Assembly: GCF_017654315.1 (NCBI RefSeq) | Contig: NZ_CP072203.1 | Coordinates: 2,790,001 to 2,854,000 of the forward strand | Direction: 5' to 3' | Length of the DNA stretch: 64,000 nt | DNA from: Gordonia polyisoprenivorans | GTDB lineage: Bacteria; Actinomycetota; Actinomycetes; Mycobacteriales; Mycobacteriaceae | Shown here: in pieces, positions 14,337 to 37,662 of the stretch | How positions within the stretch are numbered: position 1 is the stretch's first letter | How the letters are laid out: each line of letters opens with the position of its first letter | Program-made: the position numbers and the translations under genes | Notes under the pieces: model-generated | What the model saw: the letters and a program-made list of their open reading frames with translations, nothing else | What the model was told of the DNA's origin: nothing | The model's database searches: none

Positions 14337-14506
14337 TGATCTGCGAGTGTCGACCTCAACGTGAACGCAGGAGCCCGGCGGAAGGAGCGCCCCCGGCTCT
14401 CGAGCGCGGAAGACGCCGTCACCGTCGACCTCGGCCGAGACGGGTCCCGTCGCGACGAGCACCGGATCAGAGAGTGCGGTAAATCCTGAGAAAGGAAAGA
14501 GAATTG

Positions 14507-16929: not shown

Positions 16930-16986
16930 TCCGTACACGAAGAAATCCCTGAAAGCCGTAGCAAAGTAACCGACACAGGAGTCGAC

Positions 16987-17502: not shown

Positions 17503-17562
17503 GCACCGGGTCGACCCCACGCGTCGGCCCCGCGTACGCCTGACGAGAAGAGAAGAGCAGAA

Positions 17563-19727: not shown

Positions 19728-19788
19728 CCCCGGGACCTTGGACACGTTGAATCCCGCAGTTCGCGGGGAGAAGCGAGATGATCAAGGT

Positions 19789-19962
19789 ATGGCTCGGAGA
19801 CACTATTCAGAGCAGTTTCGTCAGGACGCGGTGGACTTGTACGAGTCGACCCCCGGGGCCACGGTGCGCGGCATCGCGGCTGACCTCGGAGTTGAGCGCG
19901 GCACGTTGCGTCACTGGCTCGCTCCTCGAGATCGCGTGTTCCTCGTTCTACGCGTGGCGTAA
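19789..19962 (+). pseudogene. IS3 OrfA N-terminal fragment
   Basis: From ATG 19789 the frame gives ARRHYSEQFRQDAVDLYEST and then ATVRGIAADLGVERGTLRHWL, the helix-turn-helix part of an IS3 OrfA. After HWL it runs into sequence belonging to orfB in another frame and stops at 19962. The leucine-zipper half is missing, so this fragment cannot make a working OrfAB fusion. Confidence 0.75.
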
Positions 19963-22597: not shown

Positions 22598-22915
22598 TCA
22601 ACGCTGTGGGCGGTCGATCTCCGCCGCGAAAAAAGCCGACGCCTGCTTCAAGATCGTGTTCGCCCGCCGCAGCTCGCGGTTCTCCCGCTCCAACTGCGCG
22701 ATCCGATCGGCATCCTCGGTGGTGGTGCCCGCCCGCACACCGCCGTCGATCTCAGCCTGACGAACCCAGTTGCGTAACGCCTCGGGATGCACCCCAAGCT
22801 GATCGGCAATCCGCTTGACCGCGCCGCGCGAGGACTCCGGGTCCCGTCGCGCTTCCACCGCCATCCGGGTAGCCCGCTCCTTGAGTTCCTCACTGTAATT
22901 GCGTGGTGCTGCCAT
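22598..22915 (-). CDS. IS3-family transposase OrfA
   Basis: The product, about 105 residues from ATG 22915, has the HTH (YSEELKERATRMAVEARR, then KRIADQLGVHPEALRNWVRQ) and a leucine zipper (RIAQLERENRELRRANTILK), ending in KQASAFFAAEIDRPQR. It is complete and well formed. A GGATGGAGAG stretch lies upstream. Its partner orfB is broken, so at most it could act on other copies in trans. Confidence 0.8.
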   Translation of the reverse strand: MAAPRNYSEELKERATRMAVEARRDPESSRGAVKRIADQLGVHPEALRNWVRQAEIDGGVRAGTTTEDADRIAQLERENRELRRANTILKQASAFFAAEIDRPQR

Positions 22916-22967
22916 GCTCTCCATCCTTCACAGGTTCGAGAGCCTCCGACAAACCCGGGGCGGTTCA

Positions 22968-23259
22968 CTATCGCGAGGCACGTACCGCACGCACCCAGAC
23001 GGTACATCCGGGTGGCACGATCATCGCTCCCGACCTTTACGGCAGCACCGAGCAGATCGTGGAACAGATCAGGACCGATCGTGGATTCGCCGGAGCCGAT
23101 GACTACCTGATTGAACTTCCTTTCCAGTTCGACTACGAGGACTATCGCCACATACTCCGTGAGATCGCGTGGCACATCGGGCCGGCTCTCGGGTGGAGTT
23201 CACACACTGAATTCTCTGATTCACAAGGTAATACGTCAACAACAGGAGCGAGGCGATGA
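22968..23259 (+). pseudogene. C-terminal fragment of luciferase-like monooxygenase
   Basis: Directly after the IS end, the plus strand reads GTIIAPDLYGSTEQIVEQIRTD, GFAGADDYLIELPFQFDYEDYRHIL and REIAWHIGPALGW. This is the usual end of bacterial luciferase-like (LLM) flavin monooxygenases. All of the N-terminal domain is missing, evidently lost at the IS border. The stop overlaps the start of the SsuD-like gene by four bases (ATGA), which shows that it was the preceding gene of the same operon. Confidence 0.75.
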
Positions 23260-24503
23260 CAAAAGTACTCTGGTACATCAGCCCGGTCGACGGTCGTTAT
23301 CCGTGGGCGGAGGATGGACGATACCCGGTGGACCACAGCAGATTGCAGCGTCTGGCGCAAACCATCGATCGGCGGGGCTACTATGGAGCGCTCCTGGGTA
23401 CTTACGCCCACGACGTGTGGACCACCGCCTCCACCCTCTTGCCGCTCACACAGCGGCTACGTTTCCTGCTGCCGGTCTATCCCGGCGTCATCTCACCCAC
23501 CTATCTCGCCCAGCAGGCATTGACCTTCGAGGACCACTCGGGTGGCCGGTTGCTGTTCAATGCGGTCAACGGAACAGAATCGATCTCTCGATCATTTGGT
23601 CTCAACATCTCCAACGACGTGCGCTACGCGGTGAGCGAGGAGTACTGGGAGCTGTTCAAGAAGGTCTATCAGGGAAAACCCATCACCGAGCCCGGAAAGT
23701 GTTGGGAACTCACCGAATTGGCGGAGGGTGCGCCCACCGAAGTCGACGGTGTCAACGGAACCGAGGCACTGGGACTGGGGCCCATCCAGCTGCCGCACAC
23801 CCCGATCTGGGGTGCGGCGGCCTCACCGGCCGGAATCGAGCATTCGGCCCGGGTCCTCGACGAGTTCTTGGCCTTCTGGGATCGTCCCGATAAACTCGCC
23901 AAGCTCTTCGGCGATGTCAAGAAGGCAGCGGCCGCGCAGGGACGTCAGGTCAAACTCGGTGTGCATGGAAGTGTGATCGAGCGCGAGACCGAGGAGGAGG
24001 CATGGGCGCACGCCCAGTGGCTGCTCGACCAGACCACCGGGCCGGGCTTGCGTGCCTTCGCTGATGCGGCGCTTCAAGGGCGTCAGGGAGTGCCCGGGGG
24101 TGTCGAGGATCTGTCCAGCGATGATCCGCAGGTGCAGTTCCGCATCGACACCCTCAAGGCATCGCGGGTCCCCAAGGCGCGCGACCTCGAGATCGCCCCC
24201 AACCTGTGGTCGGGAGTGACTCCGTGGTCGCCGCTGGATCCGCAGGGTGCGGGCTGGGGCACGTTCATCGTCGGAGACCCGAAGCAGGTTGCCGATCGCA
24301 TTCACGAACTCGAGGAGTAATACAGCATCGACTCGCTGATCTTGTCCAACTGGCCGCTTGCCGAAGAAGCCGAGCGATTCGCCGACCTGGTGTTGCCGCT
24401 GCTGGATCTCGACCATGACGCGCCCGCTCTGTCGCGGCCGACGGCTAATCTGCCGCAGGAGAAGGGATATGGCTTGCGTCAACCGGTGAGTGCGGCCGGA
24501 TAG
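23256..24503 (+). pseudogene. SsuD-like FMNH2 monooxygenase, in-frame TAA
   Basis: The frame from ATG 23256 encodes an LLM-class monooxygenase related to alkanesulfonate monooxygenase SsuD. It has LWYISPVDGRYPW, GYYGALLGTYAHDVWTTAS, PGVISPTYLAQQALTFEDHSGGRLLFN and VGDPKQVADRIHELEE. A TAA at 24318-24320 stops it at 354 residues. The same frame continues without other breaks as YSIDSLILSNWPLAEEAERF and on to 24503, the normal C-terminal helices of the family, giving about 415 codons. So a single nonsense codon separates a conserved tail. The truncated enzyme lacks only the last segment and may be unstable. Such enzymes use FMNH2 from a separate reductase to release sulfite from sulfonates. Confidence 0.8.
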
Positions 24504-24616
24504 TCGCCGGTGGTTGCACCAACGACGGTGGCCGGGGGTGGGGTGCGGCGAGGCCGCCCGTCCCCACTCCCGGCGGTTCGGTTGCCATCGGGGATCTGAT
24601 ACTCGAATCGGGCGCC

Positions 24617-25618
24617 GTGCTTGGTGGTGCGGAGATGTTCTCCGAGTCCTTTGGGCGGCTGTCTTCGGCAAAAGGCAACGGTGTCCTCGTCTTTCACGGA
24701 CTCGGCGCCAACTCGCACCTGAGTGGCGATGATCGTGCCCCTGGATGGTGGCAGGACGTGGTGGGGCCGGGCCTGGGGCTCGATACCGACCGGTTCTGCG
24801 TGATCGCTCCCAATGTTCTCGGCGGCTGTGCCGGATCGACCGGACCCGGCTCGATTGACCCAGATGGTCGACGCTGGGCGGCCCGGTTCCCCGCGCTCAC
24901 CATCCGAGATCAGGTTGCCGCGGCGGCGCAGTTGCGGCGGGAGTTGGGCATCGAGCGGTGGGCGGCGGTCATCGGGGTGTCCTTCGGCGGTATGCACGCT
25001 ATGGAATGGCATGTGAGCCTAGGTGATATGGCAGACCTGGTCGCGGTGATCGCGGCACCTTGGGTGACCACCGCCGAGCAGATAGCCGCAAACTCGCTGC
25101 AAATCGACGTGGTCCGGGCGGACCCGGACTATCGTCATGGCGACTACCGGCAGCTGGGTACCGCACCCATCCGTGGGCTGGCCTTGGCGCGCCGAATCGG
25201 GATGCTGCAGTACCGGGCCCCAGACGACTTCGACCGCCGTTTCGGGCGGGCGCAACAAGATCATGGGGGTGGACAGTTTGCGGTTGAATCGTATTTCGCC
25301 TCCAACGCGGAGAAATTCGCGGAATCCTTCGATGCGAACAGCTTCATCACCTTGGTCAACGCGAAGAACAGCCATGACATCGGACGGGGCCGTGGCGGCG
25401 CGAGGGCAGCACTGACGGCCGCCACACATCCGCTGCTGGTGGTGGGGATCGACTCCGACCGGCTCTTCCCGCTCGATCAGCAGCGGTTCATCGCCCGGCA
25501 TTCTCCGGGCAGTGTGAGTGGTCGTGAGCCGGTGGTCCACTCCGGGGGACACGGCCACGATGCCTTCCTCATCGACCAGCAATGGTTCGGCGAGGTATTG
25601 GGACGTCATCTTTGTTGA
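24617..25618 (+). CDS. MetX-like alpha/beta-hydrolase acyltransferase
   Basis: The sequence matches homoserine O-acetyltransferase-type proteins: VLVFHGLGANSHLSG, APNVLGGCAGSTGPGSIDP, FPALTIRDQV, the nucleophile S122 in GVSFGGMHAMEW, LLVVGIDSDRLFPLDQQ with the triad Asp, and GGHGHDAFLID with the triad His. Canonical MetX has GGSMGGMQ at the nucleophile, so this is a divergent member. In-frame sequence before the start (AIGDLILESGAVLGGAE) also matches the family, yet no ATG, GTG or TTG precedes it after the upstream stop. GTG 24617 is therefore the only visible start and gives a shortened N-terminus. It could acylate homoserine, or another alcohol, within the sulfur cluster. Confidence 0.75.
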   Translation: MLGGAEMFSESFGRLSSAKGNGVLVFHGLGANSHLSGDDRAPGWWQDVVGPGLGLDTDRFCVIAPNVLGGCAGSTGPGSIDPDGRRWAARFPALTIRDQVAAAAQLRRELGIERWAAVIGVSFGGMHAMEWHVSLGDMADLVAVIAAPWVTTAEQIAANSLQIDVVRADPDYRHGDYRQLGTAPIRGLALARRIGMLQYRAPDDFDRRFGRAQQDHGGGQFAVESYFASNAEKFAESFDANSFITLVNAKNSHDIGRGRGGARAALTAATHPLLVVGIDSDRLFPLDQQRFIARHSPGSVSGREPVVHSGGHGHDAFLIDQQWFGEVLGRHLC

Positions 25619-25805
25619 CCTGCGAGCGCGTATCGCGGTGAAGCCCACGGCCAGATGTGGGGCGGACCAACTTTGTCGCAGCCCGTTGGGATCTCACTGC
25701 AACAAACCCTCGACGGTCCACGATGCGCGCGTCGATAGTTGCATACGCCGAACAGTCGATCGATTGTTGCTGCGGCATAACCGTATTCGATTACAGGAAG
25801 TTGCG

Positions 25806-27170
25806 ATGCCCAAGCGGCTGTTCTTCAACGCGTTCGTCATGAACACCACCAGTCATATCCACCACGGTCAGTGGCGCAGAAATGATGCGCAGCAGAGTGA
25901 TTTCAACGATGTCGACCTGTGGATCGATCTGGCAACTCTGCTGGAGGAGGCCAGATTCGACACCATCTTCTTCGCAGACGTCTCGGGACACTACGGAGAC
26001 GCCGATGCGGACTACTCGGTATACGCCCGAGAAGGATTGCAAATCCCCAGTAACGACCCGACAGTGCTCGTTGCCGCGTTGGCCACACACACCCAGCATC
26101 TGGGCCTTGCCGTGACGTCAAATGTCTTTCAGCAACACCCCACGAACTTTGCCCGCCAGATTGCGACGTTGGATCACATCAGCAAGGGACGCATCGCCTG
26201 GAACATCGTGACCGGAACCCAGGACAACGGGTATCGCAACTTCGGGTACGAGGCGCTGGAAGATCACGACGAACGGTATCGGTGGGCCGACGAGTATGTC
26301 GAGGTTGCCTACAAACTCTGGGAGGGATCCTGGGACGACGACGCGTTACTCGTCGACAAGGCCGGTGGAGTGCACGCCGACGCGAGCAAGATCCACAAGA
26401 TCTTCCACTCCGGTGAGAGATATCGGGTTGAGGGGCCTTTTCTGCCGTCGCCCTCGCCACAGCGAACGCCGCTGCTGTTTCAGGCCGGATCTTCCGGGCC
26501 CGGTCGGGCCTTTGCCGCCCGCAACGCCGAGGCCGTCTTCCTCGTGGCACCCACTCCGGAGATCGCCCGCCAGCAGATTACGCAAACGAGGGCGCTGGCA
26601 CAGGCTGCCGGACGTAACCCGGGCGACATCACCTTCCACCAGGGGCTGAGCTTTGTCATCGGCGATACCGAGCAACAGGCGCGCGAGAAGTTTGCCGAGT
26701 ATCAACGCTATGTGAGCCCGGACGGGTACTCGGCACATATGGCGATCGTCGACGAGAACGGCCGGGTATATCCCGCCGAAACCCCACTCCGTGACGTCCG
26801 CACCAACACCGCCCACGGGTTCCTCGACCATCTTCGTCGCCATATCACCGACCGGGAGCCGACCGTCGGCGATCTTGCGCTGCAACGACTTCGCAATTCC
26901 GTTGTGGTGGGAACGCCTGAGCAGATCGCCGACACCCTGCAGGTGTGGCAGGATGCCGGGGTCGACGGCATCAACGTGATCAACTGGGTGATCCCGGGAT
27001 CGTTTGCCGAATTCGCCGACAAGGTTCTGCCGGTGCTGCGAGACCGCGGCCTCGCTCAGCGCGAGTACACGCCGGGCACGTTGCGGCATAAGATCTTCGG
27101 AGCCGACCGGCTCAGCGCACGGCATCCGGGTGCGGCGTACCGCGGGGCCTTTACTCCCGTGGGGCGATGA
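25806..27170 (+). CDS. NtaA/SnaA/DszA-family flavin monooxygenase
   Basis: This 454-residue luciferase-like monooxygenase starts at ATG 25806 behind AGGAAG. Signature stretches are FNAFVMNTTSHIHHGQWRR, FDTIFFADVSGHYGD, NFARQIATLDHISKGRIAWNIVTG, PLLFQAGSSGPGRAFAARNAEAVF and the C-terminal GIN-VINWVIPGSFAEFADKVLPVLRDRGL. Members of the family use reduced FMN from a separate reductase to oxidize substrates such as nitrilotriacetate, dibenzothiophene sulfone or sulfonates. The neighbours suggest an organosulfur substrate. It converges with the DszC-like gene, and the two 3' ends overlap by 20 bases. Confidence 0.85.
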   Translation: MPKRLFFNAFVMNTTSHIHHGQWRRNDAQQSDFNDVDLWIDLATLLEEARFDTIFFADVSGHYGDADADYSVYAREGLQIPSNDPTVLVAALATHTQHLGLAVTSNVFQQHPTNFARQIATLDHISKGRIAWNIVTGTQDNGYRNFGYEALEDHDERYRWADEYVEVAYKLWEGSWDDDALLVDKAGGVHADASKIHKIFHSGERYRVEGPFLPSPSPQRTPLLFQAGSSGPGRAFAARNAEAVFLVAPTPEIARQQITQTRALAQAAGRNPGDITFHQGLSFVIGDTEQQAREKFAEYQRYVSPDGYSAHMAIVDENGRVYPAETPLRDVRTNTAHGFLDHLRRHITDREPTVGDLALQRLRNSVVVGTPEQIADTLQVWQDAGVDGINVINWVIPGSFAEFADKVLPVLRDRGLAQREYTPGTLRHKIFGADRLSARHPGAAYRGAFTPVGR

Positions 27171-28386
27171 TGGTGCCAAAAGAGCTCGGGAGCTCACCGT
27201 TGACCAGATACTCGCCGATGGATCGGGCCTTGTAGATCACCGGATTGTGCGAGGAGATGGTGCGGGCATTGCGCCAATGCCGGTCCAGCGCAAGGTCGAG
27301 ATCGGTTGCCGATGCGCTGGCGGCGTCAAAGAATCGCCAGGTTGCCTCCCCGGCGAGACGTGTATTGAGTACCTGCGTTGCTGCGGCCGCGACGATCACC
27401 TCGTTCAGTCCTTGCGGTGAAGGATCTGCGTTGTAACCGTCAACGGTCAGTGCCGCAGCTGTCACCGCGGAACGAGTTCCGTACGCGGCGGTCTTGACCT
27501 CGCCGACCACCTCGAGCACCTGCGGATCGTGTCGGGGCGGAGTTGCCGTGGCCAGCGGATAACTGCGTGTACGCCCCGCGACCAACTCGCCGAGATCACG
27601 TGTCGCCCGCTCGAGGATCCCCGCCTGCGTGCTGGAGTGAACAAGTTGATAGAAGGCGTTGAGGTACTCGCCGGTGGCCGCGGACTCGCGGCGCAAAGCA
27701 TATCCCGGGCGCACTTCCACTCGGTCGAAGTGGGCAGTGCCACTGGCGGTGAACCGTTGGCCGAAACCATTCCAGTCGTCGATCACGCCGACTCCTGGAT
27801 CGTTGCGGCCCACCACGACCTCAAACACTCCGTCGTCGTTGATGACGAGCACGTTGATCCACTGGGCGTAGAGCGAACCGGTGGTGTAGTACTTGCTGCC
27901 CGACAACACCAGTGTGTTCTCACCACGCTCCAAGGTGGTCGAGGAGTCGATGATGGTGGTCGGTGCAGCTTCGCCGGGTTTGCCGCTCGCGCTCACCGAC
28001 GCGGCCGGCCCGAACAGCTCGCCGCGCCCCGCCGCCGCCAGTAGCTCGTCGCGTACCGGACTGGCGTCGAGTCGGAGCAGGAACTCCACGAATCCCAGAT
28101 GACCGCGGAAGATCTGCACAAAGTTCGAGTCGGCGGCCGCGAGGCGGATCAGCTCGGAGGCAAGCTCGGAGACCGATGATCCGCCGCCACCGAACTCGAC
28201 CGGCACGCGTAGTCGACCCAGCCCGGCTGCGGCCAGTGCGGCGACCTCCGGTTCCGGTGAGTGTGACTGTGATTCCCGGGCGGGTGCCTGCGCACCGATT
28301 GCTGCGACGATCGGGATCAGTGCGGCACTGATCGACTCGGTCTCGGGCGTCGGGAGGGGCTGTGCTGCTGCGACTGTCGTTGTCAT
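27151..28386 (-). CDS. DszC/SfnB-type flavin monooxygenase
   Basis: The 411-residue protein has the acyl-CoA dehydrogenase fold: an N-terminal helical domain (RLRVPVEFGGGGSSVSELASELIRLAAADSNF), a middle beta domain (LVLSGSKYYTTGSLYAQWINVL and VIDDWNGFGQRFTASGTAHFD) and a C-terminal helical domain. The late DRHWRNARTISSHNP is a hallmark of the DszC-like monooxygenases, which use reduced flavin to oxygenate sulfur compounds instead of dehydrogenating acyl-CoA. The start ATG 28386 overlaps the stop of the ABC ATPase gene (ATGA), so it is the last gene of the leftward transporter operon. A paralogue lies at 33735-34958. Confidence 0.82.
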   Translation of the reverse strand: MTTTVAAAQPLPTPETESISAALIPIVAAIGAQAPARESQSHSPEPEVAALAAAGLGRLRVPVEFGGGGSSVSELASELIRLAAADSNFVQIFRGHLGFVEFLLRLDASPVRDELLAAAGRGELFGPAASVSASGKPGEAAPTTIIDSSTTLERGENTLVLSGSKYYTTGSLYAQWINVLVINDDGVFEVVVGRNDPGVGVIDDWNGFGQRFTASGTAHFDRVEVRPGYALRRESAATGEYLNAFYQLVHSSTQAGILERATRDLGELVAGRTRSYPLATATPPRHDPQVLEVVGEVKTAAYGTRSAVTAAALTVDGYNADPSPQGLNEVIVAAAATQVLNTRLAGEATWRFFDAASASATDLDLALDRHWRNARTISSHNPVIYKARSIGEYLVNGELPSSFGTIIAPRE

Positions 28387-30095
28387 GATCGTTGCGCCAC
28401 CTGGTGGAGTTGTTGGTACTCGAGGCGGGGAAGGGACTCGAGGAGTTTACGGGTGTAGGCGTGGGTCGGATGGTTGAAGATCTCGTCGGCATCACCCTGC
28501 TCGACGCAGTTGCCGCCCTGCATCACCAGCACGCGGTCGCTCATGTGATGAATGACCCCGAGATCGTGTGAGATGAACAGGTAGCTCACGTGCAGTTGGT
28601 ACTGGAGGTCGGTGAGCAGGTCGAGTATCTGTGCTTGTATCGACACGTCGAGTGCCGAGACGGCCTCGTCGAGTACTACCACCTCGGGGTTGGTGGCCAG
28701 CGCCCGCGCGATGGCCACCCGTTGGCGTTGTCCGCCCGACATCCGCAGCGGCCACGCCCGGCAATGATGTTCCGTCAACCCAACCATCTCCAAGAGCTCC
28801 ACCACCCGCTGATCGATCCGGGAAGCGTTGGCGGTGTCCCCGAGTGTGATGGCGTCGGCCAGAATCCGGTGGACGCGCCAGCGGGGGTCGAAGGAACTCA
28901 ACGGGTCCTGATAGACCACGGAGATCCGTCGGCGGATACGACGCTGATCGGCAGAACTTGCACTCGTCCAGGGCGAATCCCGAAACAACACCTCGCCGGA
29001 GTCGGGGGTGGTCAGCGCCAACGCGATGCGAGCCAGAGTGCTTTTACCCGAACCGGATTCGCCGACAATCCCGAGTGTCTCGCCTCGATCGAGGTGAAAC
29101 GAAACATCGTTGACCACGCGGCGCCGGATGTTGTCGGGACCGCGGTAGGACTTGGTGACCCGTCGTGCGGTGAGCAACGGCGGGGCGTCGGAAGCGGCCG
29201 TGTCCATTCGTGGCGGAAACAGTGCGGCAGCCGTCCGGGTCGCGTGTGTCGTTCGTGAGAGCCGAACACCTTTGGTGTGTTCGCTTGGTACCGCATCGAT
29301 CAGTTGCCGGGTGTAGGGGTGGCGTGGTGCGTTCAACACCTGTGTCGCCGAGCCGGATTCAACGATACGTCCGCCCTTCATCACCAGGATCTCATCGGCC
29401 ATCCGCGCTACCACCGCGAGATCGTGGCTGATGAGGATGACGGTGGTACCCCCGTCGATCATCGCTTGTAGGACGTCGAGTACCTGCGCTTGCACCGTGA
29501 CGTCGAGGGCGGTGGTCGGCTCGTCGGCGATGACCAGCGCCGGCTCGAGTGCGATGGCCGAGGCGATCAAAGCGCGTTGTCGGAGTCCGCCGGAGAGCTC
29601 TCCACAACGTTGGCGTGAACGGACTTCGGGCTCGGGTACCCCCACCCGTCCGAGTACCTCGGCGACGCGGGCCGATCGACCCGCTCGGTCGCCCACACCA
29701 TGCAGCGAGAACGCCTCGGCAATCTCCTTGCCCACCGGGCGCAGTGGGTCGAGTGAGACCAGTGCATCCTGCAGGATGAAACCTATCTGTGCACCGCGTA
29801 CCGATCGCCACCAGGAGTCCGGGCGACGGAGCAGGGTCTGGCCATTGAACTCGAGTGTGTCGGCCGATACGGTGGCGGCCTCTCCGGACAAGCCGACAAG
29901 GGTGCGTGCGGTCACCGATTTACCTGAGCCCGACTCACCGACCAGAGCGATGCATTGACCTTGACGCAGGGTGAACGAGACATCCTTGACCACGTGGACC
30001 TCGGGTGTCTGCTCGCCCCCGAAGGACACATTGAGATTCTCCACCCGTACCAGCTCGCCGGTGGAGTCGGTGGTGGCGACGACGGTTGCGGTCAT
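28383..30095 (-). CDS. Fused dual ABC ATPase, peptide/nickel type
   Basis: This 570-residue protein carries two complete ATPase domains, equivalent to DppD and DppF joined together. Domain 1 has GESGSGKS (about 54-61), ELSGGLRQRALIASAIA and VIADEPTTALD. Domain 2 has GESGSGKST (about 345-353), MSGGQRQRVAIARALA and VVLDEAVSALD. Each domain ends with the oligopeptide-type tail (HPYTRQLIDAVPS and HAYTRKLLESLP). It powers the importer formed by the two permeases upstream. Its start codon overlaps the upstream stop. The natural ligand class of such systems is peptides, nickel or small organics; here a sulfur compound is inferred from context. Confidence 0.9.
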   Translation of the reverse strand: MTATVVATTDSTGELVRVENLNVSFGGEQTPEVHVVKDVSFTLRQGQCIALVGESGSGKSVTARTLVGLSGEAATVSADTLEFNGQTLLRRPDSWWRSVRGAQIGFILQDALVSLDPLRPVGKEIAEAFSLHGVGDRAGRSARVAEVLGRVGVPEPEVRSRQRCGELSGGLRQRALIASAIALEPALVIADEPTTALDVTVQAQVLDVLQAMIDGGTTVILISHDLAVVARMADEILVMKGGRIVESGSATQVLNAPRHPYTRQLIDAVPSEHTKGVRLSRTTHATRTAAALFPPRMDTAASDAPPLLTARRVTKSYRGPDNIRRRVVNDVSFHLDRGETLGIVGESGSGKSTLARIALALTTPDSGEVLFRDSPWTSASSADQRRIRRRISVVYQDPLSSFDPRWRVHRILADAITLGDTANASRIDQRVVELLEMVGLTEHHCRAWPLRMSGGQRQRVAIARALATNPEVVVLDEAVSALDVSIQAQILDLLTDLQYQLHVSYLFISHDLGVIHHMSDRVLVMQGGNCVEQGDADEIFNHPTHAYTRKLLESLPRLEYQQLHQVAQRS

Positions 30096-30958
30096 CAGTG
30101 TGAGATCCCTTCAGAACGATCCTGGATGTAGCGTCCGATCTGGGTGAAAGCCAAGGCCGTCACCACGATCGCCAGGCCGGGCATCACCTCGAGCCACCAT
30201 GCGGTGGTGATATCGGCTTTGCCTGAATTGAGCAACGCGCCCCACTCCGGCGATGGCGGGGCAACTCCCAAGCCGAGAAACGACAGCCCGGACGCCCACA
30301 CAATGCTCTGGCCGACCCCGAGCGCCACCAGGGCCACCAACGGTCGAAAAGCGTTGGGAAAGATGTGTTGGGAGAAGATGGTTCGTCGCTCGTGTCCCAG
30401 TGCGCGGGCGGCTTCGACGTATGCCGAATCACGTACGCCCAACGCTTGGGCGCGGACGAGGCGGGCATAACCGGGGGCCGAACCGATACCGACCGCGATG
30501 ATCAGGCTCAGTTCCGAGGGGCCCATCAGCGCCACGAACAGCAGCGCCAACAGCAGCACCGGGAAGGCGAGGAAGATGTCGAGAAGTCGGTTCACCGGCT
30601 CACCCAGCCAGCGTGGGCTCAAGGCCGCAACAAAACCGAGGATCAGCGCGATTACCAGGGCCAGTGCCATTGCACCGATACCGATCGACAACGAGCTTCG
30701 GGTACCCCAGATGATGCGGCTGTACAGGTCACGTCCGACGCTGTCGGTGCCCAGCCAGTGCGAACTCGACGGCGGTGCCAGGGTTTGACCGAGGTCGACC
30801 GCGAAGGCCGACTGGGTGGCCAACAGTCCGGGAGTGGCCACGGCCACAACAACCAGAACCAAGACCACCGCTGCAATCAGCGTGGACGGGGGCACGGTGG
30901 TGACTGTTGTACCCAGCCGCTTGCGCGTGCTGTGGAGTACTTCACCGGGGCTGGTCAT
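30095..30958 (-). CDS. ABC importer permease, DppC type
   Basis: The 287-residue membrane protein has the N-terminal helix (LIAAVVLVLVVVAVATPGLLA), the DppC/OppC extracytoplasmic motif with HWLGTDSVGRDLYSRIIWGTRSSL, and the coupling motif AARALGHERRTIFSQHIFPNAFRPL in the binding-protein-dependent transport domain. About six membrane helices are seen. It would pair with the DppB-type permease, whose stop overlaps its start by four bases (ATGA). Confidence 0.9.
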   Translation of the reverse strand: MTSPGEVLHSTRKRLGTTVTTVPPSTLIAAVVLVLVVVAVATPGLLATQSAFAVDLGQTLAPPSSSHWLGTDSVGRDLYSRIIWGTRSSLSIGIGAMALALVIALILGFVAALSPRWLGEPVNRLLDIFLAFPVLLLALLFVALMGPSELSLIIAVGIGSAPGYARLVRAQALGVRDSAYVEAARALGHERRTIFSQHIFPNAFRPLVALVALGVGQSIVWASGLSFLGLGVAPPSPEWGALLNSGKADITTAWWLEVMPGLAIVVTALAFTQIGRYIQDRSEGISH

Positions 30959-31968
30959 CTGCTACCTCCCAGACGTGGATCGACGATCGTGTAGATGACG
31001 TCGATGAGCAAGTTGACGGCAACATAGACCGCACTGATCAAGATGACGAGTCCCATGACGAGCTCGAAGTCTTTGTCCGACACCGATTTGACGAGGACGG
31101 CACCAAGACCCGGTCGCGCGAAGACCGACTCCACCAATACTGCTCCGGATAGCAGTGCTCCCATTGCCCACCCGGAGAGCGTGATCCCGGGGATGAGCGC
31201 GTGCCGTAACACGTGGCGCAGGCGAACCCCGTTCTCACTCATTCCCCGTGTCCGTGCCGAGAGCACAAACGGTTGCCGTATCGCCCGATCGAATTCGGTG
31301 CGGGTGGCCTGTCCGATGAACCCGGCCAAGGGAATTGCCAGGGTGAACGCCGGAAGCACCGTGCCGCTGACATCGACTCCGCCGATCACCGGGAACCACC
31401 CGAGGTTCACTGCGAAGACGATCAGCAAGATGACGCCCAGCCAGTATTGGGGGAGCCCGGCGGTGATCGTCTCGACAGTGGAACCGAGCGTCTTGACCCG
31501 GCGTCCACGCCCTGCGGTCAGCAGGGTCCACGGCACCGATAGCACCCAGGCCAGAATCAGGGCCGAGATGGTCAGCGTCAGGGTGGGGCCCACCTGCTCG
31601 CCGATGATCTCGGTGACCGGACGGCGCAGCTCCCACGACGTGCCCAGATCGCCGCGCAGCAGATTTCCCAGATATGAGAAGTACTGCACGATCAGTGGTC
31701 TGTCCCAACCGTATTGGGCGTTGACCGCGGCGATCTCGGTATCTGTCCGGGTGGTGGTCAACCCGGACTGCACGTTGAGGACGATCGCCGCCCGGTTGCC
31801 CGGGAGTACCGAGAGCACGATGAAGGTGACGGTCACTGCGCCCCACAGAACGAAGATCGCCGAGGCGAGTTTCACCGCTGTGGTGCGTGCGACCTGGGCA
31901 GGCGAGGTGCGCGGTTGTGGTGTCTCATCATCGGTGTCGGGCACTCCGATGGCCTCGGCGATGCTCAT
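30955..31968 (-). CDS. ABC importer permease, DppB type
   Basis: The 337-residue permease has a first helix at FVLWGAVTVTFIVLSVLPGNRA, the following QYGWDRPLIVQYFSYLGNLLRGDLGTSWELRRPVTEII that is typical of DppB/OppB, and the coupling region LSARTRGMSENGVRLRHVLRHALIPGITL. It forms the channel together with the DppC-type protein. Its start at 31968 directly abuts the stop of the binding-protein gene at 31969, so the genes form one operon. Confidence 0.9.
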   Translation of the reverse strand: MSIAEAIGVPDTDDETPQPRTSPAQVARTTAVKLASAIFVLWGAVTVTFIVLSVLPGNRAAIVLNVQSGLTTTRTDTEIAAVNAQYGWDRPLIVQYFSYLGNLLRGDLGTSWELRRPVTEIIGEQVGPTLTLTISALILAWVLSVPWTLLTAGRGRRVKTLGSTVETITAGLPQYWLGVILLIVFAVNLGWFPVIGGVDVSGTVLPAFTLAIPLAGFIGQATRTEFDRAIRQPFVLSARTRGMSENGVRLRHVLRHALIPGITLSGWAMGALLSGAVLVESVFARPGLGAVLVKSVSDKDFELVMGLVILISAVYVAVNLLIDVIYTIVDPRLGGSR

Positions 31969-33582
31969 CTACTGATCTCCGCTCAACTGAACGTCGGAGA
32001 ACACCGGCAAGCCGTTGCTGCCCTGGTCTTGCCAGAACCCCTTGAGTCCCTTCGTGGTGACAACGCTGTTGGTGAAGTCGTAAAAGCCAACGGCTATCGC
32101 CTGGTCGTTGAAGTAGCGTTGCAGGTCCTGGTACTGCTGATCACGGGCGGTGGGATCCGACTCTCGCTGAGCCGCCATGATCTTGGCCTCGACGGCAGGA
32201 TCATTGAAGAAGGTCTTGTTATTGCCGTTGGGTTCTGCGGTAGTGCCTGCGCTGTAGACGATGTCGAGAATATTCGGTGCGGGCCACACCCAGTAACCGA
32301 AGTAGAGCTCGAGGTCGTTGACACTGCTGGATTCGCCGGCGAAGAGCTGGGTCATGGTCAGCGGCACCAAATCGAGTTCGAATCCGACCTTCGCTACCTG
32401 CTCCTGGATCGCTTGCAGCGCTGCCGTGCCATCCTGACTGACGATGGGGCCCGCGCCGTAGGGCAGTCGGATCTTCAGGAGTGCGCCGTCCTTCTCGCGC
32501 ACGCCGTCGGAGTTGAGCTTCCAACCCGCCGCGTCGAGGAGTTGACCGGCCTTTGTCGGGTTGTACAGGTAGGTGTCGTTGACGTCGAGATACGACGGAT
32601 TATTGGGGCTCAGTGAGCCATTGGCGTCGTAGGGTGCAGATCCCTTGAACACCGCGTCGACGATCGATTTGCGGTCGGCGGCATAGGCGAAGGCCTGGCG
32701 AACCCGGACATCGGTGAACGGTCCACGGGCGACATTGAAGGAGAATGCCTGTTGCCGACCGCCGGTGATGAAGTTATGGACCTGATAGTCCTTTTCGGCC
32801 GTGGCCCACTGGTTGGACGGCGGATTGTAGATGGCCTGAGCCTGACCGGTGGTCAACGCACTCCAGCGAGTGGTTGCGTCGGGTGCGAACTTCCATTCCA
32901 GGTACTTGGCATAGGCGGGACCTTGGTGTTTGGCGTTCTGCGGTGCCGAGGTGTAAGCATCGTTGCGCTCGAACAGGATCTGCTGGCCCTGGGACCACTT
33001 GTTGACTTTCCATGGTCCCGATCCCACGGGGTATTGGCAGTTCTGGGCCTCGGAGTTCTTGGCCAGCGCGGTGGGTGACTGGATTCCGTAGTGGCCGTTG
33101 GAAAGTACTCGCAAGATCTCGGGATTGGGCTCGGAGAGATGCAAGGTCACGGTGTTGGCGTTGTCGGCCGTTGCCCCGGTGAGGTAGGAGAACTGGTTCC
33201 ATCCGAGGTTCTTGAGCCAGTAGTTGACGTTGGCGACCACCGCGTCGGCGTTGAAGGGGGTTCCGTCGGTGAACTTGACGTCGTCCTTGAGTACGAACGT
33301 GACATTCTTGCGATCCGCCGAGGTGGTCCACGAGGTGGCCAACCACGGCACGGGCTTGTCGGTATCCCAGCTCACCAACGAGTCGAAAACTTGTCGGGAC
33401 AGGTATGCCTGCTGTACCCATCCGCCCCATAGGCATGGTGGTTCCTGCTCATGGACGTAGGTGATGGTCTCGGACTTGTTGGTTCCGGCGTCGGTGGTTT
33501 GTGACGACGAGCACGAGGTAAGTGCGAGTACGGCGCTCAACGCCATGCCTGTGGCGAGGCCGAGTCTCCATCGAGACTTCAT
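31969..33582 (-). CDS. ABC substrate-binding lipoprotein, family 5
   Basis: From ATG 33582 (AAAGGAA upstream) the 537-residue protein has a lipoprotein signal, MALSAVLALTSC, with Cys23 as the lipidation site. The extracellular-solute-binding family 5 domain follows: SLVSWDTDKPVPWLATSW, KFTDGTPFNADAVVANVNYWL, VGSGPWKVNKW and DVRVRQAFAYAADRKSIVDAVF. It captures the ligand outside the membrane for the adjoining DppBC-type importer. The mature N-terminus (YVHEQEPPCLWGGWVQQAYLSRQV) has an unusual Cys. The frame is open to 33882, but that extension lacks coding character. Confidence 0.9.
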   Translation of the reverse strand: MKSRWRLGLATGMALSAVLALTSCSSSQTTDAGTNKSETITYVHEQEPPCLWGGWVQQAYLSRQVFDSLVSWDTDKPVPWLATSWTTSADRKNVTFVLKDDVKFTDGTPFNADAVVANVNYWLKNLGWNQFSYLTGATADNANTVTLHLSEPNPEILRVLSNGHYGIQSPTALAKNSEAQNCQYPVGSGPWKVNKWSQGQQILFERNDAYTSAPQNAKHQGPAYAKYLEWKFAPDATTRWSALTTGQAQAIYNPPSNQWATAEKDYQVHNFITGGRQQAFSFNVARGPFTDVRVRQAFAYAADRKSIVDAVFKGSAPYDANGSLSPNNPSYLDVNDTYLYNPTKAGQLLDAAGWKLNSDGVREKDGALLKIRLPYGAGPIVSQDGTAALQAIQEQVAKVGFELDLVPLTMTQLFAGESSSVNDLELYFGYWVWPAPNILDIVYSAGTTAEPNGNNKTFFNDPAVEAKIMAAQRESDPTARDQQYQDLQRYFNDQAIAVGFYDFTNSVVTTKGLKGFWQDQGSNGLPVFSDVQLSGDQ

Positions 33583-33734
33583 GGGGTGGTTCCTTTCACG
33601 GTGACAGCTGTGCTGGTCGGCGCATGTGGCAGGGGAGTCTCGCAGACCGGCGAAGAGGGAAGATCGACGAATAAGGCGGCAAAGAATGCCGACGTGCTGA
33701 TCTGGGTCTTGTGGAGGTACCGCTTCTGCGGTCG

Positions 33735-34958
33735 TCAGGCGCGATTCCTCAGGTCCACGCCGCTGAGCCAGGTACGGAAGGGAGAGGTTGCGTTGATGTC
33801 GTAGTCGCCGATGCTGACCAGCCGGAGTGGGGAGGGGTTGTGGCTGGCAAGAGTACGTGCGTTGCGCCAGTGACGATCCCACGATCTATCGGCGTCGACT
33901 GCGGATGCGCCACCCACATCGAATGACCGGGCAGCAGCGGACAAGACGGAATTCATGACCACAACTTGAGCGCGGTACACCTCGACCTCTACTTCGTCGA
34001 ACAGAGCCTCATCGGCACCACCGGTCGTGATGGCTACATCGAGGTCATCGAGGCGGGCCGCGAGACTGCGGGTGATCGTCGCGGCCAGGTAGCGTGCCGC
34101 GCTGAGCTCGCCCACCACTGACTGAACCACCGGGTCGAGAGCGGGCACGACACCTGCGCCCTGCGCGAAGTATCGCTTTCGCGATCTCACGTAGTCGACG
34201 GTCTCGGTGTGCACGGCCTGTGCGATACCGGCCAGAGCGGCGATATGCCAGAACTGTGCCAGCGAGGTGCCGTAGCTTCCCGGCTGTACACCTGGCGGCA
34301 GCTGGGGCGCTCCAGCGGTGCTCGCATCGTGAAAACGCGTGGTACCGCTCGCCGTCAGCCGCTGTCCGAAGCCGTTCCAGTCGTCGAGGAGTTCAACGCC
34401 GTCGGCATCACGAGCCACCACAGCCTGGGCGACGCCGTCGGGCCCTTCCCCGGCGGTGATGATCCAGTCTGCGTACCACGACCCGGTGCTGTAGAACTTC
34501 TCACCGGAGATGATGGACGCACCCGAGGGATCGGGTGAGATCGTTGTGGAGAAGTGGGTGCGGTTCTCTGCGGACTGCTCGGTGTAGGCACCGCCGAGGA
34601 TCTCACCGTTGCCGATGCGTCGTAGCCATTCATCGCGCTCGGGGCTGACCGGAGCTTGGCGCAAGGCGTCGGTGTAAAGAAAGTGGGCACGCAGGATCTG
34701 AACGAAGTTGGAGTCCGCCGCCGCCAGCTGGATCAACAGCTCGGCAAGCTCACTCAATCGGATTTCACTGCCGCCGAACTCCCGCGGAATGCGCAGTGCG
34801 GTAAAGCCCGACTGGGCCAGGCGGGCAACGAGTTCGGTGGGAAGCGTGCGTGCGCGTTCCCGATCGATCGCTGTGGCACCGATCTCTGCGAACAACGGAG
34901 CAAAACGTGCGGACAACGAGCCGTGTGGTGAGGTGGAGGTCTCGATGAGGCCGGTCAT
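33735..34958 (-). CDS. DszC/SfnB-type flavin monooxygenase
   Basis: The 407-residue protein from ATG 34958 has the acyl-CoA-dehydrogenase fold with LRIPREFGGSEIRLSELAELLIQLAAADSNFVQIL, ISGEKFYSTGSWYADWIITAGE and LLDDWNGFGQRLTASGT. It closes with DRHWRNARTLASHNP, the same signature as in its paralogue at 27151-28386. The family monooxygenates sulfur or nitrogen heteroatoms with FMNH2 from a partner reductase. The start lies one base after the stop of the upstream DszA-type gene, so the two are translationally coupled. The two gene products probably act in sequence, as DszC and DszA do. Confidence 0.82.
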   Translation of the reverse strand: MTGLIETSTSPHGSLSARFAPLFAEIGATAIDRERARTLPTELVARLAQSGFTALRIPREFGGSEIRLSELAELLIQLAAADSNFVQILRAHFLYTDALRQAPVSPERDEWLRRIGNGEILGGAYTEQSAENRTHFSTTISPDPSGASIISGEKFYSTGSWYADWIITAGEGPDGVAQAVVARDADGVELLDDWNGFGQRLTASGTTRFHDASTAGAPQLPPGVQPGSYGTSLAQFWHIAALAGIAQAVHTETVDYVRSRKRYFAQGAGVVPALDPVVQSVVGELSAARYLAATITRSLAARLDDLDVAITTGGADEALFDEVEVEVYRAQVVVMNSVLSAAARSFDVGGASAVDADRSWDRHWRNARTLASHNPSPLRLVSIGDYDINATSPFRTWLSGVDLRNRA

Positions 34959-34959
34959 A

Positions 34960-36354
34960 TCAGTGCGCACCAACGGAGTCCGAGAGGCCGATGGTGCGCG
35001 CCCGATGACGGGCGTCGATGGCATCGCCGTTACGGAAGAGCTTGTTGCGCAAGGTGCCTGGGTGGTACTCGCGTTGCGCCAGGCCGCGATCCTGCAAGAC
35101 CGGAAGCACGTTGTCGACCCACTCTCCCCACCATCCAAGAGTGGTGATGGGTACCACGTTGAAGCCATCGACCCCTGCATCCACCCACGAAGACACGTGA
35201 TCGGCGATCTGCTCCGGTGTTCCGGCGAAGCGGCCCGGGAGCAGGCCCTGATCGAGCAGATAGTCCCGCCAGGAGACCGTGGACGGATCGACCTGTGAAT
35301 CGGCCGCCGCCCGGAACACCGAACGTACGTGGTCGCCCAGTTGTGCGCGCTTGGCGAGTTCGGCCAGCGGTGTCTCGGGGTCGACCGAGGTCAGATCGAT
35401 CCCGCTCCCGCCACTCCAGAAGGCTTGCAGGGCTTCGAAGTCGATGTTGTCACGGAAGTACTGCTGGTTGCGCTTGGCCTCTTCCTCGGTGGAGCCGACG
35501 ATGGTGGACAGTGTCACGATCTTCTTCAACGACTGCGGATCGCGCCCCTGTGCTCGTGTCTCGGCATCGAGGATGTCGATGTCGGCACGCGCGGTCAGCG
35601 GTGTCTGCGAGGGCAAGAAGGTGACCTCGGCATTTCTGGCCGCAAATTGCCTTCCGGCAGTGGAGTTTCCGGCCTGGAAGAGTACTGGTGTGCGCTGTGG
35701 CGACGGCTCCACGATATGGGGACCCTGCACCTGGTAACGCGGCCCGACGTGGTCGATCGTGCGGATCTTGTCGGGATCGAAGAATCGATTGGTGCTCGGG
35801 TCGTGGACTACCGCGCCATCCTGCCAGGAATGCTCCCAGAGCTTGTAGGTCACGTCGGCATATTCTTGAGCCCACACGTAGCGGTCATCGTGGCCGACGA
35901 TGGCATCGTAACCGTAGTTGCGGAATCCGTTGGACAGGTACGAGGTGACGATGTTCCACCCGACGCGACCGTCGGTGAAGTGGTCCAGGGAAGAGAGCTG
36001 GCGCGCGAAACTGAAAGGGTGACTCTGAATGATGTTGCTGGTGACCGCGATTCCCAGATGCTCGGTCGCGTATCCCAACGCCGAGACGATCGTCACCGGG
36101 TCTGGTTCGGGAAACTGGGAGCCGGCACGGATGGTGGTGTTGCTCTCGCCGAAGTCGAGGTCGTAGACGCCGACCACGTCGGCGATGAACAGGGTGTCGA
36201 AGAGACCGCGCTCCAAGGTGGTGACCACATCGATATAGGGGTCGAGCTTGGTGTACCCGTACTGGACCTGTCCTTGCGGAGTCCGCCAGAAGCCGTGGCT
36301 GTGATGATTTGGGGTCAGATGCAGAAAGCCGTTGTAGATCGGCGGACGAGGCAT
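34960..36354 (-). CDS. NtaA/SnaA/DszA-family flavin monooxygenase
   Basis: This 464-residue luciferase-like monooxygenase has YNGFLHLTPNHHSHGFWR, FDTLFIADVVGVYDLDFG, FSFARQLSSLDHFTDGRVGWNIVTSYLSNGFRNYG and TPVLFQAGNSTAGRQFAARNAEVTF. Its C-terminus reads FNVVPITTLGWWGEWVDNVLPVLQDRGLAQREYHPGTLRNKLF. It is a divergent paralogue of the enzyme at 25806-27170. It is the first gene of the leftward DszA-DszC pair; the 190 bases upstream to 36544 should contain the promoter. A flavin reductase is not encoded in the window and would have to come from elsewhere. Confidence 0.85.
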   Translation of the reverse strand: MPRPPIYNGFLHLTPNHHSHGFWRTPQGQVQYGYTKLDPYIDVVTTLERGLFDTLFIADVVGVYDLDFGESNTTIRAGSQFPEPDPVTIVSALGYATEHLGIAVTSNIIQSHPFSFARQLSSLDHFTDGRVGWNIVTSYLSNGFRNYGYDAIVGHDDRYVWAQEYADVTYKLWEHSWQDGAVVHDPSTNRFFDPDKIRTIDHVGPRYQVQGPHIVEPSPQRTPVLFQAGNSTAGRQFAARNAEVTFLPSQTPLTARADIDILDAETRAQGRDPQSLKKIVTLSTIVGSTEEEAKRNQQYFRDNIDFEALQAFWSGGSGIDLTSVDPETPLAELAKRAQLGDHVRSVFRAAADSQVDPSTVSWRDYLLDQGLLPGRFAGTPEQIADHVSSWVDAGVDGFNVVPITTLGWWGEWVDNVLPVLQDRGLAQREYHPGTLRNKLFRNGDAIDARHRARTIGLSDSVGAH

Positions 36355-36544
36355 GGGGCGACCTTTGCGTTCTCGGGAATGAAGTGTGCGGCGTCGGCGA
36401 GTGCTCGCTGTGAAGCGTCTGACCCAGAGTCGGGCGACCCGCGCGCAGTCAGTATCCGGACTGAAAGTGATACTTACAACTGTTTCGATCAGTGGGAGAA
36501 ATATGAACCATCACTTGATTCAAGGAGTGGTTCACCGAGGCGAG

Positions 36545-37570
36545 TCAGAAGTGGAACAGGATGGCGTGGGCGTCCCCGACGTTGCGAATCGAGGCGCCGT
36601 GAGCGTTGGTCAGCGAGACGACGTCGGCGGCGCGAGCGAGCATCCGCGAGGATGCTCGCTCGACACAGACCAACCCGGAGCCGATGAGAATGGTGAGAGT
36701 GCCCGCCGGTCCGGTCGATGGACTCAGCGTTTCGTGCGGCGACAGTCGGTGCGACCGGAGCGCGCCACGCGCCAGTGGTGATGCAACGGCGGTCGCCGGC
36801 GCATTCTCGGCTGGGATCCCGTCTCGTTGCTCGACGATGATGGGGGTCGCGGCATCGCCGCGCGCCAGAGTGTCCAGAGGTAAACCCAACTGCTCGGCGA
36901 TGTCTATGGCGGTGTCCAACGAGATGCCGAGTCGTCCGCGCTCCATCTGTGAGATCGCGCTGGGTGTGATGCCGACTCGACGGGCTAGCTCGGACTGGCT
37001 CCAGCCGCGGTCGGTGCGCGCCGCGCGCACCCCTCGCCCCAGCGCCGATGCGCCCGGGCCGGGGCGTCGAGAACCATTCAGATCGTGAGAGTCTCCCAGC
37101 GCAACACGGTTGCGACTGACAGCGCGGCCATCGGCGCGCACGACGCTCACTGCGCCGTCGGCCACATCGAGTTCCACCTGCATGGCCCACGCCCACTCGT
37201 TGCGAGCCGGGGTGTCGGGCGCCGCCAGCCAATGGCAGACCGACCGTTGGGCAGAGAAGATCGATTGCGCCACACTCACGATCGTGCGCGTCTGCGATGT
37301 CGTGGCGCTGCTCAAGTCGATCAAGAAGGTGGAGACGTCGGGTGGTTGCGATTGAAGTGATTGCAGTTGTTGCGCGTCGACGGCGATGGCTGTCGGGCCT
37401 GCAGCTGCCAGGATCGTTGCAATGAGTGTCGCTGGGTCGTCATCGACGGACCAGGCGATATTCTCGCCTCCCACAAGCGGTCCCAGCAGTGAATCCACTT
37501 GCGGGACGCCGGTTGTGAGCCTCGGAGTCGGCACCGGACCGATGCCCAGACCGACCGAAGTTGCCATCAC
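36545..37570 (-). CDS. XRE-family regulator with extra N-terminal domain
   Basis: The 341-residue protein has a central XRE helix-turn-helix (RAARTDRGWSQSELARRVGITPSAISQMERGRLGISLDTAIDIAEQLG, about residues 183-230). A cupin-like C-terminal part follows (HRLSPHETLSPST, LTILIGSGLVCVE, DVVSLTNAHGASIRNVG). The first 150 residues (PQVDSLLGPLVGGENIAWSVDD and TAIAVDAQQL) look like a degenerate RecA/KaiC-type nucleotide-fold domain without a clear Walker A. Its position at the head of the leftward sulfur genes makes it the best candidate regulator of the cluster. It is divergent from OsmC, which starts 92 bases away. Confidence 0.75.
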   Translation of the reverse strand: MMATSVGLGIGPVPTPRLTTGVPQVDSLLGPLVGGENIAWSVDDDPATLIATILAAAGPTAIAVDAQQLQSLQSQPPDVSTFLIDLSSATTSQTRTIVSVAQSIFSAQRSVCHWLAAPDTPARNEWAWAMQVELDVADGAVSVVRADGRAVSRNRVALGDSHDLNGSRRPGPGASALGRGVRAARTDRGWSQSELARRVGITPSAISQMERGRLGISLDTAIDIAEQLGLPLDTLARGDAATPIIVEQRDGIPAENAPATAVASPLARGALRSHRLSPHETLSPSTGPAGTLTILIGSGLVCVERASSRMLARAADVVSLTNAHGASIRNVGDAHAILFHF

Positions 37571-37662
37571 CCGCCCCCTGCCGAAGTATGCGTTACGCCA
37601 CTGACGACGAGACTAACCCACGTCCTGCGACGTGCCGGCCCGACGCGACTATCGTCGAGGGA

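Follow-up and report, generated by a model that had tools for sequence, protein, structure and literature searches.

A 64,000-nucleotide stretch of the Gordonia polyisoprenivorans chromosome (bases 2,790,001-2,854,000 of a 6.03-Mb single-contig genome, hereafter the window) carries a gene cluster at window positions 23014-38241. It holds two intact luciferase-like monooxygenases (LLMs) of the NtaA/DmoA type, a truncated SsuD-like gene, an LLM stub, two SfnB/DszC-type flavoproteins, a family-5 importer with a fused ATPase, a MetX-like gene, an XRE-type regulator and an OsmC-like gene. A first-pass annotation of the same DNA had described an organosulfur uptake and desulfurization cluster of unknown substrate, and it had mostly read the cluster correctly, since the LLMs, flavoproteins, importer, MetX-like enzyme and XRE regulator that it named are all present. 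Its count of two intact and two broken luciferase-like monooxygenases is likewise borne out, with LLM1 and LLM2 intact, the SsuD-like gene truncated and the fourth reduced to a stub.

The minus-strand set comprises eight genes, all open and tightly packed. From the right, these are the XRE-type regulator (36545-37567), LLM2 (34960-36354), the SfnB/DszC/MsuC-type flavoprotein SfnB1 (33735-34958), a substrate-binding lipoprotein of the SBP_bac_5 family (31969-33582), permease B (30955-31968), permease C (30095-30958), the importer ATPase with two fused ABC domains (28383-30095) and a second SfnB/DszC/MsuC-type flavoprotein, SfnB2 (27151-28386), with the flavoproteins, permeases and ATPase identified by profile search. 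The OsmC-like gene (37663-38241, plus strand), which the first-pass annotation did not name, is divergent from the regulator gene, adjoins the XRE and LLM2 genes in two other Gordonia and probably belongs to the unit. The remaining genes, all on the plus strand, are the LLM stub (23014-23259), the SsuD-like monooxygenase (23256-24320) dependent on reduced flavin mononucleotide (FMNH2), the MetX-like acyltransferase (24617-25618, in a frame spanning 24569-25618) and LLM1 (25803-27170).

Both intact LLMs are, by sequence, members of the NtaA/DmoA family, with LLM1 (469.2 bits) and LLM2 (431.8 bits) above the 279.7-bit cut-off of TIGR03860. Their nearest solved relatives are a hexachlorobenzene dehalogenase, a dimethyl-sulfide monooxygenase and an alkane monooxygenase, with the monooxygenases of ethylenediaminetetraacetate (EDTA) and nitrilotriacetate far behind for both. 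The nearest solved structure to SfnB1 is a methanesulfinate monooxygenase, followed by enzymes named DszC (83-94 bits), and against the DszC model NF043015 SfnB1 and SfnB2 scored 100.5 and 101.4 bits, short of the 850-bit cut-off. The cluster probably operates in the manner of systems that scavenge sulfones and sulfonates, but is not to be filed under sfn, ssu or dsz.

With an SBP_bac_5 binding protein, two BPD_transp_1 permeases and two ABC domains, the importer falls into the Dpp/Nik class, from which a soluble, polar substrate may be inferred. The binding protein scored below the equivalog cut-offs for NikA (193.5 of 393 bits), GsiB (107.1 of 594) and DppA (78.6 of 1005), and its start resembles, by eye, a lipoprotein signal. 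A peptide ligand was considered and rejected, as the anchor of DppA for the peptide amine, mature Asp408 (precursor residue 436), is not kept: this position aligns to a Pro in the window protein and to no acidic residue in eight other usable rows, one row with a broken frame (L052) having been left out. Relatives of the binding protein at E ≤ 1e-60 occur in 19 of 59 Gordonia genomes, its own included, and the motifs EPPC and GGW are kept in its family. In a tree of 80 rows, built from the 78 of 82 loci with a binding-protein alignment of at least 430 columns and with long rows flagged (DppA, L138, L099), the window copy groups (100/100) with copies from two Rhizobium, from Acidisoma, from a Pantoea plasmid and from a Corynebacterium metagenome-assembled genome, a kind of bin in which contigs of foreign origin may be present. 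It stands apart from a clade in which a Williamsia joins the 12 other named Gordonia rows, and from one further Gordonia copy (L032). Across the loci of this six-row clade LLM2 identity is 70-74%.

Cys and Met tend to be rare in proteins that are made when sulfur is short, as has been reported for Gordonia oxygenases (PubMed Central, PMC, number PMC7661421). In the cluster, neither residue occurs after the start in LLM2 (0 of 463 residues) or SfnB2 (0 of 410), and counts are scarcely higher in SfnB1 (1 of 406), the SsuD-like protein (1 of 353) and LLM1 (3 of 454). Ten cluster genes taken together (the SsuD-like and MetX-like genes, both LLMs, both SfnB-type flavoproteins and the four importer genes) have 0.89% Cys+Met, compared to a weighted 2.72% in 150 other open-reading frames (ORFs) of the genome, a background that takes in stretches from other parts of the chromosome, including the sfn locus. 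None of 20000 random ten-gene sets was as low. Within the same genome, 12 stretches of the acyl-CoA-dehydrogenase family (12 of 60 matches, being match stretches and not whole genes) had 1.77-5.75% Cys+Met. The canonical SfnB and another SfnB-like gene both had 0%, two other SsuD genes had 0.57% and 1.71%, and the four other NtaA/DmoA-type LLMs had 0% (two genes), 1.56% and, in one gene beside a different importer, 3.92%.

The depletion is shared by relatives of the cluster proteins. These were counted over 82 loci against a background median of 2.15% in 557 proteins, leaving out pieces below 200 residues or 30% identity, ATPase matches below 50% and binding-protein matches below 38%. Less than 1% Cys+Met was found in 47 of 47 SfnB1-type proteins (median 0.00), 13 of 14 of the SfnB2 type, 10 of 10 of the LLM2 type and 77 of 81 binding proteins, as well as in 67 of 100 LLM1-type proteins, 45 of 77 permeases C, 38 of 79 permeases B and 49 of 75 ATPases. 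The ten SsuD-like relatives examined besides the window's own copy had 0.00-0.96%. Strong Cys/Met depletion, the mark of a sulfur-thrifty gene set, is thus present throughout the cluster, except in the MetX-like, OsmC, XRE and ATPase proteins, and a role of the cluster in sulfur starvation is strongly supported.

A comparison of gene order across genomes, which the first-pass annotation had proposed as a check, ties the importer to the LLMs. The comparison covered 77 named importer loci, 60 of them flanked by 8 kb or more on each side (fully flanked) and 17 shorter, and neighbours were counted within 8 kb at E 1e-20, at least 150 residues and at least 30% identity. An NtaA/DmoA-type LLM was found near the importer in all 60 fully flanked loci; for scale, the window's own 6-Mb genome has 10 matches to LLM2. 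The same loci held permease B (60), permease C (59), the ATPase (60), an SfnB-type gene (32) and an SsuD-like gene (7). None of the 60 had a MetX-like, XRE or OsmC gene. Among the 17 shorter loci, an LLM was present in 15, an SfnB-type gene in 9 and a MetX-like gene in 1, the last at 32% identity. Importer-plus-LLM relatives occur in many other bacteria. Most like the window are the loci of Rhizobium S152 (L054), Rhizobium CFBP 8762 (L055), Acidisoma silvae (L053) and the Pantoea At-9b plasmid pPAT9B03 (L137), which have the same four importer genes, LLM2 at 70-72% and binding-protein identities of 55-61%, and an SfnB-type gene in three of the four; they differ from the window in that XRE, OsmC and MetX-like proteins gave no match (E 1e-20). 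A locus in Frankia (L072:13104-18709) combines an LLM and an SsuD-like gene with two SfnB-type genes, one of which passes the SfnB cut-off, and has an FMN reductase adjoining the SfnB and SsuD-like genes. No published description of the importer-LLM-SfnB module was found in searches of open-licence PMC papers.

Given the depletion, the importer-LLM linkage and the induction published for similar loci, which is described below, the cluster is probably a sulfate-starvation cassette that imports a small polar organosulfur compound and desulfurizes it oxidatively. Shortage of sulfate would switch on the unit that lies downstream of the XRE gene, presumably under control of that regulator. The lipoprotein would bind the compound and the importer bring it into the cell. 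The SfnB-type flavoproteins, supplied with FMNH2 by reductases encoded elsewhere on the chromosome, would oxidise the sulfur, either from sulfide to sulfone or from sulfinate to sulfonate. In the order of steps suggested here, the NtaA/DmoA-type LLMs would then cut the C-S bond adjoining the oxidised sulfur, and an SsuD-like enzyme, local where it is intact or from another copy in the genome, would free sulfite for assimilation.

The reading of the first-pass annotation is thus partly supported, its sulfur-scavenging role by these three lines, which that annotation did not have, and its label of unknown substrate stands, with two amendments. One concerns the MetX-like gene, taken up below. The other is the lack of a DszB-type desulfinase and of a flavin reductase, which it had pointed out. 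A profile search of the genome with PF01613, PF03358 and PF09084 gave no match inside the window, and hence neither a flavin reductase nor a DszB-class protein from these families there. Candidate flavin reductases are found elsewhere in the genome (9 PF01613 and 5 PF03358 matches), as are SsuD-type genes at 1572388 and at 5887751, the latter adjoined by a PF03358 gene. In the published dimethyl sulfide (DMS) pathway, one reductase serves all of the monooxygenases (PMC13352529). With candidate reductases elsewhere and one reductase able to serve a whole pathway, the missing local desulfinase and reductase are not an anomaly.

The cluster is a variant of known systems for scavenging sulfonates, sulfones and sulfides. 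Such systems of the sfn/msu/ssu and DMS types are known with an SsuABC-type importer or with no dedicated one. From both the cluster differs in its Dpp/Nik-class importer, its NtaA/DmoA-type LLMs and the XRE-type regulator at its head. Both the sfn/msu/ssu enzymes (SfnG, SfnB, MsuC, MsuD, SsuD) and those of the Acinetobacter baylyi DMS pathway (Dms1-3, MsuC, MsuD, SsuD; PMC13352529) are, like those predicted here, FMNH2-dependent two-component monooxygenases that convert organosulfur compounds to sulfite, and these systems are also alike in their use in sulfur starvation, their shared reductase and the lack of a desulfinase step. The A. baylyi pathway leads from sulfide through sulfoxide, sulfone, sulfinate and sulfonate to sulfite and is run by several two-component monooxygenases together with a single reductase (PMC13352529); judged by their sequences, the window encodes enzymes of these kinds, preceded by an importer. 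The dszABC and bdsABC systems, which also occur in Gordonia, share with the cluster a pair of DszC-like and DszA-like proteins, but the cluster has a binding-protein importer, no DszB-class protein lies in the window and solved relatives of other function are closer. The Epp-Emo system for EDTA resembles the cluster in having a cluster-C binding-protein importer beside an LLM of the NtaA/EmoA family (PMC7312458), but differs from it in the Cys/Met-poor proteins, the SfnB- and SsuD-like partners and the LLMs, which are far from EmoA. The cluster is ordinary in kind, and what is new is its arrangement, in which a probable sulfate-starvation cassette has an importer of the Dpp/Nik class.

Loci of similar make-up respond in other Gordonia when a thiophene replaces sulfate, and again, by annotation (G. 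terrae C-6) or by the gene order of a related strain (G. alkanivorans 135), combine a monooxygenase with a peptide-type importer. In G. alkanivorans 135, a strain without dsz, growth on dibenzothiophene raised the acyl-CoA dehydrogenase QGP87979 393-fold by quantitative reverse-transcription PCR (RT-qPCR), the NtaA/DmoA-family protein QGP87980 by log2 12.16 in mass spectrometry and 2.60 in RNA-seq, and the deazaflavin nitroreductase QGP87986 by 2.63 and 2.47 (PMC11852219). The spacing of these three genes fits a locus of G. alkanivorans NBRC 16433 (L078:7167-16402), matched by gene order and not by sequence, in which an acyl-CoA dehydrogenase is followed by an LLM, a binding protein of another clade than the window's, two permeases, an ATPase, an O6-methylguanine-DNA methyltransferase and a TIGR00026 deazaflavin nitroreductase. 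In G. terrae C-6 on benzothiophene, the monooxygenase and peptide-type importer genes GTC6_13080-13100 rose 10-37 fold and a second peptide-type importer, GTC6_11646-11661, rose 12-32 fold, both by RT-qPCR (PMC3868597). No specific substrate is assigned to the importers of strains C-6 and 135 in the excerpts of the two reports (PMC3868597, PMC11852219). As both conditions replace sulfate, the induction is compatible with sulfate starvation and also with a thiophene substrate, and the published role of genes like those of NBRC 16433 in dibenzothiophene degradation may be a sulfate-starvation response.

Several observations weigh against the cassette. The log2 values in Table 2 of PMC11852219 are negative for the very genes whose increase is stated by the text, the RT-qPCR and Table 3 of the same paper, and the published loci (PMC11852219, PMC3868597) are tied to the window by gene order or annotation and not by sequence. 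Cys and Met are not clearly scarce in the ATPase (2.11%), the MetX-like protein (2.30%), OsmC (2.60%) or XRE (1.69%, for a shortened protein), and values below 1% were not found in 33 of 100 LLM1-type relatives or in any of the 10 SsuD-type genes of other importer loci. An SfnB-type gene lies near the importer in just 32 of the 60 fully flanked loci. SfnB1 and SfnB2 do not reach the 430.9-bit cut-off of the SfnB equivalog TIGR04022 (239.9 and 241.2 bits); the canonical SfnB elsewhere in the genome, at 2244495, scores 461 bits. Finally, the SsuD-like gene is truncated here, and the adjoining LLM is a stub.

This damage raises the question of whether the cluster is a decaying, non-functional acquired island that is no longer used, which we consider unlikely. 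The stub encodes an 81-residue C-terminus that is cut on the left by an IS3-family element and its stop overlaps the SsuD-like start; it gave no match in NCBIfam, and its LLM nature comes from tblastn matches to annotated LLM genes. The SsuD-like gene has a premature in-frame stop after 354 residues, the start of the MetX-like gene is uncertain, and transposase genes (19778-20755 and 21443-22165) and an IS3 match (approximately 22602-22982) lie to the left. GC content at third codon positions (GC3), in 8-kb bins, is lowered to 0.73-0.75 in four bins covering window positions 4000-36000, compared to 0.78 in the bin before, 0.79-0.86 in twelve bins left of position -4000 and 0.82-0.88 in three bins on the right, with 0.72 in the window's final bin. 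The region was likely acquired. A plasmid origin was considered and rejected, as no record of the plasmid collection covers 80% of the query and the matches, in the 20 of 29 records listed, are to the IS3 end or to short importer stretches. Against decay, the eight-gene set from XRE to SfnB2 is open, tightly packed and keeps proteins free of Cys or Met. SsuD homology runs on in the same frame behind the stop, and another contig of 6,048,280 bp, from a near-identical genome, carries a full-length copy of 415 residues that is 99% identical over the 354. The stop is thus a strain difference or a sequencing error. Both forms fall below the 518.2-bit cut-off of the SsuD model TIGR03565 (186.8 bits truncated, 213.3 full length).

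The amendment on the MetX-like gene, that it is probably accessory and not core, rests on its ordinary Cys/Met content and its absence from all 60 fully flanked importer loci; as a core part it was also set aside because a search of 300 other genomes of the family, in which up to 6 candidates per listed genome were scored, gave no match at E 1e-125. The protein belongs to a separate clade and passes PRK00175, the model of homoserine O-acetyltransferase MetX (367.9 bits, cut-off 331), but falls short of MetX_acetyl (500) and MetX_acetyl_MTB (475). It has GVSFGG in place of GGSMGG with the Ser, Asp and His present, and a conserved N-terminal stretch (IGDLxLESG) precedes the first ATG, GTG or TTG of its frame. 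Members of this clade, among them Mycolicibacterium, Mycobacterium, Gordonia and Microbacterium, share 62-68% identity in the aligned set, and most have GVSFGG at the nucleophile elbow. A higher-scoring MetX of the genome sits at 2648827-2649912. Around the nearest plasmid-borne relatives of the MetX-like gene and the stub nothing cluster-like is annotated, one of these records being without annotation.

Desulfurization of thiophenes of the dibenzothiophene type, with SfnB1 and SfnB2 in the role of DszC and LLM1 and LLM2 in that of DszA, appears quite improbable. SfnB1 does align to the DszC-named structures, both LLMs have a structure named "dibenzothiophene desulfurization enzyme A" among their solved matches (222 and 228 bits), and a homologous-looking locus rises on dibenzothiophene in the strain without dsz (PMC11852219). 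However, the best solved relatives are the methanesulfinate monooxygenase for SfnB1 and the dehalogenase, dimethyl-sulfide and alkane monooxygenases for the LLMs, and the DszB-class desulfinase expected of the dsz 4S pathway is missing, PF09084 having no match in the window. Hydrophobic thiophenes should need no binding-protein importer, and any sulfate-starvation gene is expected to rise on a poor sulfur source.

Scavenging of carbon or nitrogen from an aminopolycarboxylate or similar chelator, suggested by the EDTA operon in which the importer with its NikA/DppA/OppA-like EppA stands together with the FMNH2-dependent EmoA (PMC7312458) and by a second importer-LLM pair of this genome near 1.79 Mb (L147:4276-11035), is very improbable, since the LLMs match the dimethyl-sulfide monooxygenase far better (LLM2 330 and LLM1 364 bits) than the EDTA monooxygenase (142 and 150 bits), and since both the Cys/Met depletion and the SfnB-type and SsuD-like genes alongside speak for sulfur. 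The LLM of the 1.79-Mb pair is the one with an ordinary Cys/Met content of 3.92%; the pair is probably not a sulfur system, so importer-LLM pairs are not always sulfur systems.

The XRE protein has an N-terminal alpha/beta part without a Pfam name, an HTH_3 domain and a C-terminal beta-rich part (structure model with a mean pLDDT of 70.7), and was searched and scored with a shortened N-terminus (36545-37435). It has few known relatives: at E ≤ 1e-15 these occur in 3 of 59 Gordonia genomes, its own included, and a search of 5.8 billion proteins, in which the 8000 candidates sharing most words were scored, gave at least 5, its own and one from Gordonia sp. NB41Y among them. The latter listing misses two 40% copies found in Gordonia genomes, and the family is therefore undercounted. 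In two other Gordonia genomes (G053, L152:9066-18230; G072, L153:2098-11259), OsmC, XRE, LLM2 (79%) and SfnB1 (62%) stand in the same order and are followed by a branched-chain-amino-acid-type (Liv-type) importer (PF02653, two ABC proteins and Peripla_BP_6), not one of the Dpp/Nik type. XRE and OsmC were accordingly dismissed as general importer partners, being found at 0 of 60 importer loci and going with LLM2 and SfnB1 in these two genomes. Both genomes also hold a Dpp/Nik-type importer elsewhere (41%, the identity level of the other clade), with an LLM and SfnB of its own, and the core could in principle use either importer there.

The spacer between XRE and LLM2 contains, on the minus strand, a putative promoter (TTGTAA-N17-GATACT, 36451-36479) and, upstream of it, the element AAGTGATGrTTmAT (36503-36516), a candidate regulator site. 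Both are common to all three loci, with the promoter-like pair having an 18-base spacer 5′ of LLM2 in G053 and G072, in a comparison in which these two are close to each other and which is not a test of significance. A palindrome, AGTATC...GATACT, was considered as an operator and set aside, since it coincides with the -35/-10-like pair in all three loci; it is reported here as the promoter. We regard it as possible, though we would not call it probable, that the EPPC...GGW binding proteins form an organosulfur-import family common to Actinomycetota and Pseudomonadota that feeds NtaA/DmoA-type LLMs, and that in Gordonia a portable core of OsmC, XRE, LLM2 and SfnB1 is coupled either to that importer or to one of the Liv type. 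On that reading, both importers should carry the same, so far unnamed sulfur compound. If so, QGP87979 of G. alkanivorans 135 would belong to an importer locus of this kind and would not be a replacement for DszC.

Other parts of the window are of separate interest. A protein with a SUFU (Suppressor of fused) domain is encoded at 378-1019 near a transposase gene (1505-2458). An alpha/beta hydrolase, an AMP-binding enzyme, a tautomerase and metallo-beta-lactamase-fold genes lie in a row at 14504-18471, in the low-GC3 region, and two very large minus-strand ORFs (1350 and 1293 residues) with high GC3 lie at 44272-52221.

Many bacterial sulfur-starvation genes are without an assigned substrate, and the constant company of importer and LLM offers a handle on them. 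The pattern of one core with two importers is the most useful new lead, as two alternative importers on one enzyme core narrow the search for the substrate. The match to thiophene-induced loci suggests a general role in sulfate starvation for some of the genes published as "desulfurization" genes, a point of relevance to biodesulfurization and to work on fluorinated sulfonates in Gordonia.

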